From Bacteroidia bacterium (GTDB lineage: Bacteria > Bacteroidota > Bacteroidia > Flavobacteriales > Flavobacteriaceae): 34,075 nucleotides of DNA. The position numbers and the translations under genes are program-made. The notes beneath the pieces were generated by a model that had not been told where the DNA came from, did no database searches, and saw nothing but the letters and a program-made list of their open reading frames with translations. Shown here in pieces: positions 3,515 through 9,669 of this stretch. Position 1 is the first letter of the stretch, and the number at the start of each line of letters is the position of its first letter. The stretch covers positions 1 to 34,075 of the forward strand of contig JAUIAA010000002.1 in the NCBI GenBank assembly GCA_030425715.1, given 5' to 3'.

Positions 3515-4066
3515 CTATTGTAAAATTATAGGCAGTTTTACTCTAGTTGTATCCCAACCCAATATAATTTCAATATGCTTGCTTTTATCTTTAAAGGCTA
3601 TAGAAAAGGCTTCAATAGGTTCGGCTTTACTTACTTTTGCTGTCGTTCTAGCAGCGTCAAACTTTTTATCGTATTCATAAGTACCCCAAGTGTCTAAATT
3701 TGAGCTTAAAATTAAGGTCCATTCTTTTTCTTCAGGAATGGCATACAAAGTATAAGTCCCTTTTTTAACCGGTTTATTTCCAAAAAGAACATCTTGATAA
3801 AATCTTATTTCCGTAGCTTCGTTTGCCCCAACCCTCCATACTTTGCCGTAAGGAATTAGTTTCCCAAAAATTTCTCTGTTGTGTTTCTGCGGTCTTCCGT
3901 AAAGCACCTTGATTATTGGCGGAGAAATTTTATTGGCTCGATAATAAACAATATCATGAGGGCTTTTATCTAAATCCTTAAAATCTTGGGCATGCACCTC
4001 TGTTGCTGCAAAAAATACTAAAGTAAAAAGAAATAAAATCGATAATTGTTTTCTAAACGTATTCAT
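3515..4066 (-). CDS. DUF2911 domain-containing secreted protein (copy 1)
   Basis: 183 aa ORF with signal peptide; YGRPQKHNREIFGKLIPYGKVWRVGANEATEIRF...GTYTLYAIP resembles DUF2911. Confidence 0.8.
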   Translation of the reverse strand: MNTFRKQLSILFLFTLVFFAATEVHAQDFKDLDKSPHDIVYYRANKISPPIIKVLYGRPQKHNREIFGKLIPYGKVWRVGANEATEIRFYQDVLFGNKPVKKGTYTLYAIPEEKEWTLILSSNLDTWGTYEYDKKFDAARTTAKVSKAEPIEAFSIAFKDKSKHIEIILGWDTTRVKLPIILQ

Positions 4067-4070
4067 AAAT

Positions 4071-4631
4071 TTATATTTCGGCTAAAATGGCGTCGTTGGT
4101 TTTTAATGGAATATCAACTCTGGTGGTATCCCAAGCCAAAACCATAAAAGTGTTTTTGTAATCTTGCTTAAACGCAATGGAAAACACATCTAGCTCCTCC
4201 ATCTTTTTTACAGGAACTTTTATTCTTGCCACATCTTTGGTCTCATCATAAAAATAAGCCCCCCAAGTATCTGTATTGTTGTTTAAAATAATTGTCCACT
4301 CTTTCTCTCCTGGTATGGTATGCATCACATAAGTACCTGCTTTAATTACCTTGTTGCCAAACATCATGTCTGTATAAAACTTCACTTCAGTAGCCTCATT
4401 GGCTCCTGTTTGCCAAATTTTACCATACGGGATTTCTTTGCCAAAAATAGCACCTTTCTCCTTTTGGGGGCGGCTATAAACCACCTTTATCAAAGGTTTT
4501 GCAATGTTTTTATGACGTAAATAGGAAATATCTGTTGGACTCTTATCCAGTTGCTCAAACTTCTGAGCTTGGATGGTGTTGGTGAGAAAAAATGCCATAG
4601 CAATAACAGCAGTAAAATAAACTTTTTTCAT
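4071..4631 (-). CDS. DUF2911 domain-containing secreted protein (copy 2, paralog of the adjacent gene)
   Basis: 186 aa ORF with signal peptide; same motifs as the 3515-4066 product (IPYGKIWQTGANEATEVKFYTDMMFGNK). Confidence 0.8.
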   Translation of the reverse strand: MKKVYFTAVIAMAFFLTNTIQAQKFEQLDKSPTDISYLRHKNIAKPLIKVVYSRPQKEKGAIFGKEIPYGKIWQTGANEATEVKFYTDMMFGNKVIKAGTYVMHTIPGEKEWTIILNNNTDTWGAYFYDETKDVARIKVPVKKMEELDVFSIAFKQDYKNTFMVLAWDTTRVDIPLKTNDAILAEI

Positions 4632-4801
4632 AGCAGTGATAATAGTTAATTGATTTACCTGGTAGATTATAACGTGAAATACTTTTAAATATTATACAGC
4701 CATACCCATAATAAAGTAAAAAACTGATTTTTAGTGCCAAATTACAACCTTAAACTTATATTGTTGTATTTTTGTATCTTCATACATTCATTCCTATTCC
4801 T

Positions 4802-5476
4802 ATGAAAATACTAATAGTAGAAGATGAGCTAGAGATACTTAAGGTTATCAAAAAATATTTGCAAAATGCAGATTTTATTTGCGAATCGGCCATGACTTAT
4901 TTTGAAGCCGAAGATAAATTTATTAGCTATAAGTACGATATTGTAATTCTAGATATAACGCTTCCCGATGGAAATGGATTAGACCTGCTTAAAACCATTA
5001 AAAAAATAAATCCAGAAACTGGAGTGCTAATCGTTTCCGCTAAAGATTCTTTAGACGATAAACTTATGGGCTTAGATTTAGGTGCCGATGATTATATTAC
5101 GAAACCATTTCATTTACCAGAACTTAATTCAAGAATAAACTCCATAATAAGAAGAAGAAAATTTGAGGGTAATGAGAATATCATTTTTCATGAAATTGAA
5201 ATAAACCCAGATGCCAAAACAGTTTTTGCAAACAAACAACCCGTAGAACTTACCAAAAAAGAATACTTTTTACTCCTTTACTTTATTACCAATAAAAATA
5301 GAGTTTTAACCAAAGAAGCAATTGCAGAACACCTTTGGGGGGACAACATAGATTTGGCAGATAATTTTGATTTTATTTATACTCACATGCGAAACTTGAG
5401 AAAAAAAATAAAAAAAACTGGTGCCAACGACTACTTGCAAACCATTTATGGATTAGGATATAAATTTGGTGATTAA
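4802..5476 (+). CDS. Two-component response regulator, OmpR/PhoB family (receiver plus winged helix)
   Basis: MKILIVEDELEILKVI...DIVILDITLPDGNGLDLL...ADDYITKPF receiver; C-terminal LTKKEYFLLLYFITNKNRVLTKEAIAEHLWG...IYTHMRNLRKKI...YLQTIYGLGYKF winged-helix. Internal ATG at 4802 preferred because the upstream TTG start overlaps a TATTTTTG -7 box (4767-4774). Confidence 0.93.
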   Translation: MKILIVEDELEILKVIKKYLQNADFICESAMTYFEAEDKFISYKYDIVILDITLPDGNGLDLLKTIKKINPETGVLIVSAKDSLDDKLMGLDLGADDYITKPFHLPELNSRINSIIRRRKFEGNENIIFHEIEINPDAKTVFANKQPVELTKKEYFLLLYFITNKNRVLTKEAIAEHLWGDNIDLADNFDFIYTHMRNLRKKIKKTGANDYLQTIYGLGYKFGD

Positions 5477-6723
5477 TGCGTTTAATTCAAAAAACAAAAA
5501 GAACCTACATCCTATTTTCAATAATAATTTTTATTGTTTCCAGTACCGCAATTTATTTTACCCTAAAAAACATTATTGAAAAAAGACAAGACGAAAAACT
5601 TTTATGGGATAAAGAATTAATTGCACAAAAAATAAAATACGAATATCCACTACCTATTTTTGATGTAGAAGATTTTGATAAAAATGTAAATTTAAAAGAT
5701 ACGCTTTACTTTAAAGATACCTTAATTTATCAATTAATTAATGGTGTAGAAAAATATGAAAAATACAGGCAGCTTACTTCTATAGAAACCTTACACAATA
5801 AAACATACCGAATTATCACTAGAAGCTCTGATGTAAAAACACAAGATTTTTTCTTAGCAATTGTGCTCTCTGTTGGTGTGGTGATTTTATTATTAATTTT
5901 AGTAGTGTATATAGTCAATACCGTAATTATGAATTACGCTTGGCTTCCGTTTTATGAAAATCTAGAAATTTTAAAAAACTTTTCTGTTGAATTAAACGAA
6001 CCCATTGCACTAAGAGGGTCTTCAGTAGATGAGTTTAAAGAGCTAAACACTTCTATTGAAAAATTAACTGGAAAATTAGTTTCCGATTTTAGAAACCTTA
6101 AAGAATTTACCGAGAATGCTTCGCATGAAATGCAAACTCCTTTAGCCATAATGCAAAGCAAAGCAGAGTTTTTAATGCAATCTGAAGAGTTAAAACGCAG
6201 TCAAATCAAACAAATAAAAGCCATTTATGTAGCATCAAAAAGGTTGTCTAAACTAAACAAAACTCTTTTGCTTTTATCAAAAATTGAAAATCAACAATTT
6301 AGCGAAAAAGAAGAAATTCATATCAACGAAGTAATTGATAAACATTTAGAATTGGTAGAAGATTTTATAGAAAATAAAAAAATAAGCATAAACAAAAATT
6401 ATGCACTTGGTGCCAAATTAAATGCGAACCCATTATTGTTTGACATGGTTATTACCAATATTATTGGCAATGCTATTAAGCACAATATAGAAGGGGGAGA
6501 AATTTCTATAGTAACTTCAGATTTGTTTATTAGTTTTACCAACTCTGGTTTGCCGCTAAATATTCCATCTAAATCTTTATTTGAAAGGTTTAGAAAAGAC
6601 AGCAAATCTGCAGATTCTTTTGGGCTTGGTTTGGCTATTGTTAAAAAAGTTTGCGATACCAATAATTGGAATATTAACCATACTTACCTTGATAACCAAC
6701 ACAATATTACTATCTATTTTTAG
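5476..6723 (+). CDS. Sensor histidine kinase
   Basis: 1-nt overlap (TAATG) with the response regulator; two TM segments; H-box ENASHEMQTPLAIMQSKAEFLM; N-box NIIGNAIKHN; G-box DSFGLGLAIVKKVC. Confidence 0.92.
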   Translation: MRLIQKTKRTYILFSIIIFIVSSTAIYFTLKNIIEKRQDEKLLWDKELIAQKIKYEYPLPIFDVEDFDKNVNLKDTLYFKDTLIYQLINGVEKYEKYRQLTSIETLHNKTYRIITRSSDVKTQDFFLAIVLSVGVVILLLILVVYIVNTVIMNYAWLPFYENLEILKNFSVELNEPIALRGSSVDEFKELNTSIEKLTGKLVSDFRNLKEFTENASHEMQTPLAIMQSKAEFLMQSEELKRSQIKQIKAIYVASKRLSKLNKTLLLLSKIENQQFSEKEEIHINEVIDKHLELVEDFIENKKISINKNYALGAKLNANPLLFDMVITNIIGNAIKHNIEGGEISIVTSDLFISFTNSGLPLNIPSKSLFERFRKDSKSADSFGLGLAIVKKVCDTNNWNINHTYLDNQHNITIYF

Positions 6724-6778: not shown

Positions 6779-6814
6779 ACTTCAGAATTCCTATAGAAAC
6801 CCAACATACATTTG
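6779..6814 (+). promoter_or_regulatory. Promoter 1 of the sRNA array: 11-bp-phased repeat plus -7 box
   Basis: ACTTCAGAATTCCTATAGAAACCCAACATACATTTG: TTCAGAATTCC then a degenerate TATAGAAACCC repeat, and -7 box TACATTTG at 6807-6814. Repeat start to -7 box is 28 nt, identical to promoters 2 and 3. Confidence 0.7.
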
Positions 6815-6817
6815 CCA

Positions 6818-7044
6818 CGTTAATTATTTGGTACAGCCAGTAAATAACCATCTCAAAAAGTTCAAAATTACAATCTAGATATTGAGATGAATAGATTAGA
6901 CTTTTAGTTACAATTTTATCTTATTAATATATTTTGAGGGGAATGGTATTAAAAAAGATAAATACTTCGCAAATACTATGAAACATTAAGCTATTATAGT
7001 TTTGCATAAAGGTTCTTACATTGAAATTGTAAGAACCTTTTTTT
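6818..7044 (+). ncRNA. Predicted small RNA, copy 1 of 3
   Basis: TSS inferred a few nt after TACATTTG; CATCTCAA/TTGAGATG hairpin (6849-6856/6882-6889); TGAGGGGAAT at 6935-6944; GCAAATAC 6969-6976; ATTAAGCTATT 6985-6995; TTTGC 7001-7005; terminator hairpin plus U-tract ending about 7044. Confidence 0.78.
7008..7044 (+). terminator. Intrinsic terminator of sRNA copy 1
   Basis: GGTTCTTACA (7011-7020) ... TGTAAGAACC (7028-7037) followed by a T-tract. Confidence 0.88.
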
Positions 7045-7058
7045 ATAAAAATAAAATA

Positions 7059-7094
7059 ACTTCAAAATTTCTTCAGAATTGAAAATTACATTCG
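7059..7094 (+). promoter_or_regulatory. Promoter 2 of the sRNA array
   Basis: ACTTCAAAATTTCTTCAGAATTGAAAATTACATTCG: TTCAAAATTTC + TTCAGAATTGA (11-bp phase), -7 box TACATTCG at 7087-7094. Confidence 0.75.
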
Positions 7095-7097
7095 CAG

Positions 7098-7310
7098 CGT
7101 TATCATGAATACTGACATCCAAATTTCAGAAATATTGATGGCTATGAAGTAAATTCTGAATTATTTTAGATTTACAGTTTTATTTTAAATTATATTTTTT
7201 TGAGGGGAATTGTATAATCTTAAAATAAAACTTGCAAATACATTGAAATATTAAGCTATTTTAATTTGCGTAAAACCCGTTTAAATTTTTATTTAAACGG
7301 GTTTATTTTT
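7098..7310 (+). ncRNA. Predicted small RNA, copy 2 of 3
   Basis: TTCAGAA/TTCTGAA hairpin (7125-7131/7154-7160); TGAGGGGAAT 7201-7210; GCAAAT 7234-7239 paired with ATTTGC 7264-7269; ATTAAGCTATT 7250-7260; 14-bp terminator stem. Confidence 0.82.
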
Positions 7311-7311
7311 T
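7273..7311 (+). terminator. Intrinsic terminator of sRNA copy 2
   Basis: AAACCCGTTTAAAT (7273-7286), TTTT loop, ATTTAAACGGGTTT (7291-7304), then ATTTTTTT: a 14-bp perfect stem. Confidence 0.9.
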
Positions 7312-7336
7312 TAAACCGATTAGGAATCATAACAAA

Positions 7337-7372
7337 ACTTCAGAATTTCTTCAGAATTCAGTTATACATTTG
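7337..7372 (+). promoter_or_regulatory. Promoter 3 of the sRNA array
   Basis: ACTTCAGAATTTCTTCAGAATTCAGTTATACATTTG: TTCAGAATTTC + TTCAGAATTCA (11-bp phase), -7 box TACATTTG at 7365-7372. Confidence 0.78.
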
Positions 7373-7375
7373 TAT

Positions 7376-7594
7376 TAAATCTTTAATTTCGTTTACTTTT
7401 TTTAAAATTAAAGGTTTTTATTTTTCTAACAATTTAGTGATTTCAGGTTAAAATCACCATAATATTAAACTGAGGGGAATAATATTATACAATAGATTTT
7501 AACTTTATGCAAATACTACAAATATTAAGCTATTTTTATTTGCACTATTTAAAAGCCTACCACAATTTACTTTTAATGTGGTAGGCTTTTTTTT
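7376..7594 (+). ncRNA. Predicted small RNA, copy 3 of 3
   Basis: GTGATTT/AAATCAC hairpin (7437-7443/7451-7457); TGAGGGGAAT 7471-7480; GCAAAT 7509-7514 paired with ATTTGC 7538-7543; ATTAAGCTATT 7524-7534; strong terminator. Confidence 0.82.
7551..7594 (+). terminator. Intrinsic terminator of sRNA copy 3
   Basis: AAAAGCCTACCACA (7551-7564) ... TGTGGTAGGCTTTT (7577-7590) plus T-tract. Confidence 0.9.

Positions 7595-7704: not shown

Positions 7705-9669
<1,965 letters not shown>

Follow-up and report, generated by a model that had tools for sequence, protein, structure and literature searches.

The window, that is the whole 34,075-nucleotide stretch of DNA analysed, carries a gene for an OmpR-type response regulator, a gene for a PorY-family sensor histidine kinase and, after a gap of about 1 kb, gyrB (Table 1). 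The kinase scored 404.5 bits against the NCBIfam model NF052314 (T9SS_HK_PorY; cut-off 350), which is a broad model. The strongest-scoring relatives of the adjacent regulator include the PmrA/BasR, CtrA and PhoB models, all under their cut-offs. PorX was ruled out as the identity of this regulator, which consists of a receiver and a Trans_reg_C domain, whereas PorX combines a CheY-like receiver with a PglZ domain. Two tandem DUF2911 genes (3515-4066 and 4071-4631, minus strand) lie divergent from the response regulator gene; their synteny is kept throughout the genus, and they are possibly tied to the two-component system. On the other side, gyrB was found downstream in every locus with a contig long enough, and it probably stands outside the sRNA/two-component system.

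The gap between the kinase gene and gyrB contains three copies of a single module, with copy starts spaced 280 and 278 nt apart. The sequence-only reading had placed three small-RNA genes here, with -7 boxes at 6807, 7087 and 7365 and a period of about 280 bp, and these coordinates were reproduced. It had also called the gap free of any credible ORF; indeed, no ORF of at least 80 aa is present in this gap of the window, and the smaller ORFs look incidental. The predicted sRNA genes are about 215-225 nt long. The covariance model built for the family (R1) matched copy 1 with 64.2 bits (6899-7013), copy 2 with 79.6 bits (7161-7277) and copy 3 with 89.7 bits (7429-7551), and the folding z-scores of the three copies were -3.8, -6.3 and -5.2, respectively. 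The second stem-loop contains ATTAAGCTATT at 6985, 7250 and 7524. As had been proposed, each copy has its own intrinsic terminator: all three end in a G+C stem followed by a T run. A terminator pattern scan found those of copies 1 and 2, against 0.2 expected by chance, and the loop of the copy 3 terminator exceeds the length that the scan permits. From the earlier list of blocks, the promoter, the two loop boxes and the terminator were retained. The 5' hairpin was not, because it varies between copies and some short homologues have no space for one, which places it outside the conserved core. In three loci (L007, L014 and L018) the last array copy is short, the distance between regulator box and GAGGGG being just 68 nt, as against about 108-168 nt in the remaining copies, which suggests that the RNA can do without its 5' region.

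Table 1 Genes and predicted sRNA features of the locus, in positions of the window
Feature	Position	Strand	Basis
OmpR-type response regulator (receiver + winged helix)	4772..5476	+	Pfam Response_reg, Trans_reg_C
PorY-family sensor histidine kinase	5476..6723	+	NF052314, HisKA, HATPase_c
Copy 1 putative regulator box (11-bp direct repeat)	6779..6800	+	17/22 vs consensus
Copy 1 -7 promoter box TACATTTG	6807..6814	+	sequence; TAnnTTTG consensus
sRNA copy 1	6820..7045	+	start inferred from -7 box
Copy 1 loop A, TGAGGGGAAT	6935..6944	+	UGAGGGGA invariance
Copy 1 hairpin B, loop AUUAAGC	6969..7005	+	fold, covariation, loop conservation
Copy 1 intrinsic terminator	7009..7045	+	terminator pattern scan
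Copy 2 putative regulator box	7059..7080	+	21/22 vs consensus
Copy 2 -7 promoter box TACATTCG	7087..7094	+	sequence
sRNA copy 2	7100..7312	+	start inferred
Copy 2 loop A, TGAGGGGAAT	7201..7210	+	sequence, conservation
Copy 2 hairpin B	7234..7269	+	fold, covariation, conservation
Copy 2 intrinsic terminator	7273..7312	+	terminator pattern scan
Copy 3 putative regulator box	7337..7358	+	22/22 vs consensus
Copy 3 -7 promoter box TACATTTG	7365..7372	+	sequence
sRNA copy 3	7378..7594	+	start inferred
Copy 3 loop A, TGAGGGGAAT	7471..7480	+	sequence, conservation
Copy 3 hairpin B	7509..7543	+	fold, covariation, conservation
Copy 3 intrinsic terminator	7551..7594	+	sequence and fold
gyrB, conserved downstream neighbour	7732..9669	+	Pfam

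The pattern GAGGGG-N30-60-TTAAGCTAT was present in 20 of the 22 genomes of the genus, and a reversed-pattern control gave two matches. Named records with the pattern include the marine species Lutimonas halocynthiae and L. saemankumensis. R1 gave 79 matches in loci, mostly two or three per locus, and at every locus whose contig permits checking the sRNAs sit in the gap between the kinase gene and gyrB. When 400 Flavobacteriaceae genomes from 237 genera were searched with R1, under stricter filters that weak matches could escape, only Lutimonas and one sister genus were recovered. Neither the window nor any of five related loci gave a match reaching the gathering threshold in Rfam 15, a relaxed Rfam search gave only far sub-threshold matches, and viral contigs yielded no sRNA matches. 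Further, no description of the RNA family was found in a non-exhaustive search of open-licence papers. The family thus appears to be undescribed, and the earlier statement that it is not a named one agrees with both Rfam searches.

Across 55 distinct copies, 24 of the 26 base pairs of the two hairpins had changed on both sides. The covariation score was 0.451, compared with 0.160 for column shuffles and 0.07-0.13 for slid pairings, figures that are inflated because the alignment was fitted to the R1 model. RNAalifold on the raw MAFFT alignment gave no structure, and the coarse structure was taken instead from pair counts and from single-sequence folds, which give the same two hairpins. Loop A (UGAGGGGA) was invariant in all 54 distinct copies covering that part, and loop B (AUUAAGCUAUU) was conserved except in some first-position copies, the first copy of the array often having a changed or decayed loop B. 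In the copy tree, many branches of which are poorly supported, as expected with 124 columns, the copies clustered by array position (9 changes, compared with a mean of 24 after shuffling). The copies are thus orthologous by position, suggesting that the duplication is old: it probably predates the diversification of the genus, and the copies have probably kept separate identities since before then. The covariation and the positional orthology uphold the view of the sequence-only reading that these are selected RNA genes rather than a recent duplication or an inert repeat. Its idea of a redundant output stands in part only, given the separate identities of the copies and the frequent change or decay of loop B in the first one.

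Upstream of the -7 box, which follows the TAnnTTTG promoter consensus (PMC9723704), we found a direct repeat with an 11-bp period and the consensus ACTTCAGAATT-TCTTCAGAATT, an element that the earlier reading had not mentioned. At least 17 of its 22 positions agreed with the consensus in 49 of 55 distinct homologues, and of the 50 boxed copies, 48 had precisely 6 nt between the end of the repeat and the -7 box. Regulators of the OmpR/PhoB type recognise direct repeats of 11 bp that adjoin or overlap the -35 region. Close sites were few when five genomes were scanned, at 4-8 in each, and the sRNA locus ranked with the best of them. In some orthologous pairs from other Flavobacteriaceae genera, whose regulators are 55-72% identical, a similar repeat and promoter lie just after the kinase gene or before the regulator gene, ahead of protein genes. 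Their products, as judged by eye, are small secreted, PepSY-like, sulfatase-like membrane and PAP2-like proteins and TonB-type receptors. The kind of repeat in these orthologous pairs, the small number of genomic sites and the OmpR-type neighbour together make it most likely that the repeat is the site of the adjacent regulator, and the sRNA genes are most likely the main output of this regulator in the genus. Together with the covariation and the positional orthology, the rigidly spaced box argues for a multicopy sRNA output of the two-component system, as had been put forward from the sequence.

The genes behind these promoters suggest a PmrA-like envelope regulon across the family Flavobacteriaceae. 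For the box itself, a PmrA-like assignment was retained as no more than a resemblance, the regulator's PmrA, CtrA and PhoB scores all being below cut-off. Autoregulation of the regulator gene was considered, and no box was seen by eye at 4632-4771. Just past the kinase gene in loci of other genera (L096-L102), repeats resembling CTTTAGATTT-N-CTTTAGAATT and a TAnnTTTG box stand ahead of envelope genes. Further promoters with the repeat were seen in genomes of the genus (L117, L118, L120, L113, L122, L124, L129 and L134). Their genes encode a small Lys/Cys-rich lipoprotein, parallel beta-helix-like secreted proteins, a small PepSY-like protein (in the window's genome) and a 279-aa lipoprotein starting with MKKNVLLVAIFLF.

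Candidate targets were surveyed by pattern searches and fetched stretches. When the loop B complement ATAGCTTAAT was sought before ATG codons in five whole genomes, gldL recurred among the matches in all three good Lutimonas genomes, and the gene order gldK-gldL-gldM was confirmed. A match of TAGCTTAA or longer lay in the gldK-gldL spacer in 13 of 17 genomes of the genus and was absent from all 28 gldL leaders of other genera. The window's own genome carries the spacer site AAATAGCTTAATA (L205), for which predicted duplexes with loop B ranged from -11.8 to -14.2 kcal/mol across the three copies. In the genus, AATAGCTTAA is the commonest 10-mer of gldL leaders and stands at a variable distance of 24-38 nt from the ATG. 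The site is absent in four genomes of the genus (G158, G160, G161 and G169); three of the four keep loop B, and G169 has no sRNA pattern match. For the sister-genus genome G148, matches to the exact pattern included neither the gldL site nor the PD40 site in exact form. The short motif CTTAA is common in outgroups (24 of 28 gldL leaders, often inside ACTTAAGT), so part of the gldL site may predate the sRNA and have another role. A separate observation concerns many other genera (L212, L215, L221, L223, L227, L228, L235 and others), in which a palindrome-like conserved ACCTACTTAAGTA lies in the gldK-gldL spacer 30-45 nt before gldL and is possibly a distinct cis-element. In addition, L209 (G170:C138) holds a second gldL-like copy with two TAA codons inside the match, which is a pseudogene, a sequencing fault or assembly contamination.

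A search for ATAGCTTAA upstream of ATG codons in 11 genomes, combined with the earlier matches, gave at least 46 ORFs. These come from the matches listed and retrieved, which leave out the rows of G025 and most matches of G153. Among them, only gldL (at least 9) and a gene for a secreted PD40 beta-propeller protein (at least 6) recur beyond a pair, in counts of orthologues that are not independent of one another. Codons 6-8 of the PD40 gene include TCCCCTC in five of the six genomes and GCCCTC in the sixth, and the Pro codon at the loop A match is CCC in 5/5. The PD40 mRNA thus offers a match to each conserved loop, and the order of the two is antiparallel, with predicted duplex energies of about -14 kcal/mol for loop A and -12 to -13 kcal/mol for loop B. 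The PD40 gene with its site was not recovered in the window's own genome, which is 71% complete. Total counts of loop B complements near ATG codons were not above the reversed-pattern control, and loop A complements upstream of ATG codons showed neither an excess over the reversed control nor a recurrent gene. With no overall excess, the case for the targets rests on the recurrence of orthologues and on the double match.

These results point, with fair though not high confidence, to base-pairing multicopy sRNAs that are activated by the adjacent regulator and act on the gliding/T9SS motor, a scheme in which we infer that the RNAs are expressed, that this regulator activates them, that the duplexes form and in which direction the effect goes. 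A signal would be passed from the PorY-family kinase to its OmpR-type partner, whose main output in the genus would be two to three trans-acting sRNAs. The phosphorylated regulator would bind the 11-bp repeat upstream of each TAnnTTTG box, so that the copies may be activated separately, and each transcript would stop at its own terminator. Each RNA is predicted to expose loops A and B on its two hairpins. Loop B would pair in the gldK-gldL spacer, upstream of the gldL start, and set the output of GldL relative to GldK, possibly by repression or by a changed stability that uncouples GldL from GldK. On the PD40 mRNA, the two loops would straddle the start codon, loop B pairing immediately upstream and loop A immediately downstream, and so block translation; repression is thus the likelier effect on this gene. 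In two sampled genera, the tandem sRNAs occupy the place that protein genes hold behind the kinase gene in related systems. We offer only tentatively, and with less than even confidence, the wider proposal that a PorY-family system became a switch with sRNA output, in which paired seed loops flank a start codon, the level of GldL is set within gldK-gldL-gldM, and sensing is linked to gliding/T9SS with no binding of the regulator at gld promoters.

Several other readings were weighed against this one. An inert tandem array, or one of regulator or terminator elements that yields no functional RNA, is very improbable in view of the covariation of both hairpins, the two invariant loops and the orthology by position between diverged genomes. 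It is hardly more credible that the repeats encode small peptides, whether secreted or regulatory: short ORFs are present by chance, but they share no conserved frame, and the changes in the hairpins compensate pairing rather than codons. More weight attaches to the possibility that AATAGCTTAAT in gldL leaders is a cis-element of the gldK-gldL spacer unrelated to the sRNAs. The CTTAA core of the outgroup leaders and the four genomes of the genus that lack the longer site are in line with such an element. However, the extension to AATAGCTTAA occurs only in the sRNA-bearing genus, its distance from the ATG varies, and an unrelated gene has the same 9-11-mer in its leader; we regard this explanation as doubtful.

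A further alternative accepts the RNAs as real and two-component-controlled, and assumes that they bind a protein through the invariant GAGGGGA loop in the manner of Rsm/Csr, the gldL and PD40 matches being incidental. It would account for loop A being kept more strictly than loop B, with UGAGGGGA unchanged even where loop B has decayed, and for the lack of excess or a recurrent gene among loop A complements near ATG codons. Nevertheless, CsrA (PF02599) was found in none of five genomes, four of them at least 90% complete, whereas control genomes were positive, and titration of CsrA as by RsmX/Y/Z was rejected on this absence and on the single invariant G-rich loop per RNA. Moreover, in five genomes both loops find correctly ordered matches in the PD40 gene, which keeps its CCC codon there, and the sixth has a near-match. 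Protein binding through loop A is therefore unlikely, and base pairing with target mRNAs is the reading that we prefer.

Few sRNAs of Bacteroidota have known regulators, and how they find their targets is little understood; Bacteroides is reported to have no obvious Hfq and ProQ (PMC7366714). The present system is compact and belongs to a genus with cultivated species, and it brings together a regulator, its likely box, old paralogous sRNAs and two predicted mRNA targets. If true, the proposed pathway would connect the T9SS/gliding motor with a PorY-family kinase through RNA. Control of T9SS genes by PorXY has been disputed, as one report found no binding of PorX to T9SS promoters (PMC5005315) and a later one described binding to the porT promoter (PMC8050853).

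PorX binds PorL/GldL in Porphyromonas gingivalis and F. johnsoniae (PMC5005315, PMC10951265), and thus a connection between PorY-family kinases and this motor protein exists already. By analogy, a link from the kinase to the motor is plausible here by another route. The Lutimonas system resembles PorXY in its PorY-family kinase and in a proposed output that touches the same motor protein, and differs in that the partner is a DNA-binding OmpR-type protein encoded beside the kinase, not a PglZ-domain PorX, and in the proposed sRNA route. In Pseudomonas, GacA has a small direct regulon, and its main output is paralogous sRNAs with G-rich loops. The present locus is similar in having a two-component regulator with paralogous G-rich-loop sRNAs as its likely main output. 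Rsm RNAs carry many GGA loops and titrate CsrA/RsmA by means of them, whereas the Lutimonas RNAs have one G-rich loop each, and with CsrA absent the analogy to GacA-RsmX/Y/Z drawn by the sequence-only reading does not extend to protein titration. Its second analogy, Qrr1-4, fails at the promoter. Qrr1-4/5 of Vibrio are paralogous base-pairing sRNAs below a phosphorelay, with sigma-54/LuxO promoters and Hfq. The Lutimonas RNAs would share the position downstream of phosphorelay signalling, but their promoters combine a TAnnTTTG box, not a sigma-54 type, with an OmpR-type 11-bp repeat 6 nt upstream.

LhrC1-5 of Listeria monocytogenes are five copies, all dependent on LisRK, and each RNA has several CU-rich pairing motifs, one of which covers the Shine-Dalgarno sequence, that pair around the translation start of an envelope gene (PMC4132741). 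Like LhrC, the Lutimonas RNAs are multicopy, with their own promoter and terminator per copy and several predicted pairing loops; unlike LhrC, the loops are GAGGGGA and AUUAAGC and the targets are others, the likeness being one of functional class. Bacteroidota scarcely use Shine-Dalgarno pairing. In Flavobacterium psychrophilum, Rfp18 is a structured sRNA reported to be conserved in Flavobacterium, with metalloprotease targets, and one of its stem-loops is predicted to pair in the fpp2-fpp1 spacer and to uncouple the two genes (PMC9723704). The Lutimonas RNAs likewise are flavobacterial sRNAs with predicted pairing in an operon spacer; this comparison is by description, not by sequence, and R1 matched only 2 of the 237 sampled Flavobacteriaceae genera. 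Overall, the evidence from these sequences points to sRNAs that are closer to LhrC of Listeria or to Rfp18 of Flavobacterium than to either of the two analogues proposed at the outset.
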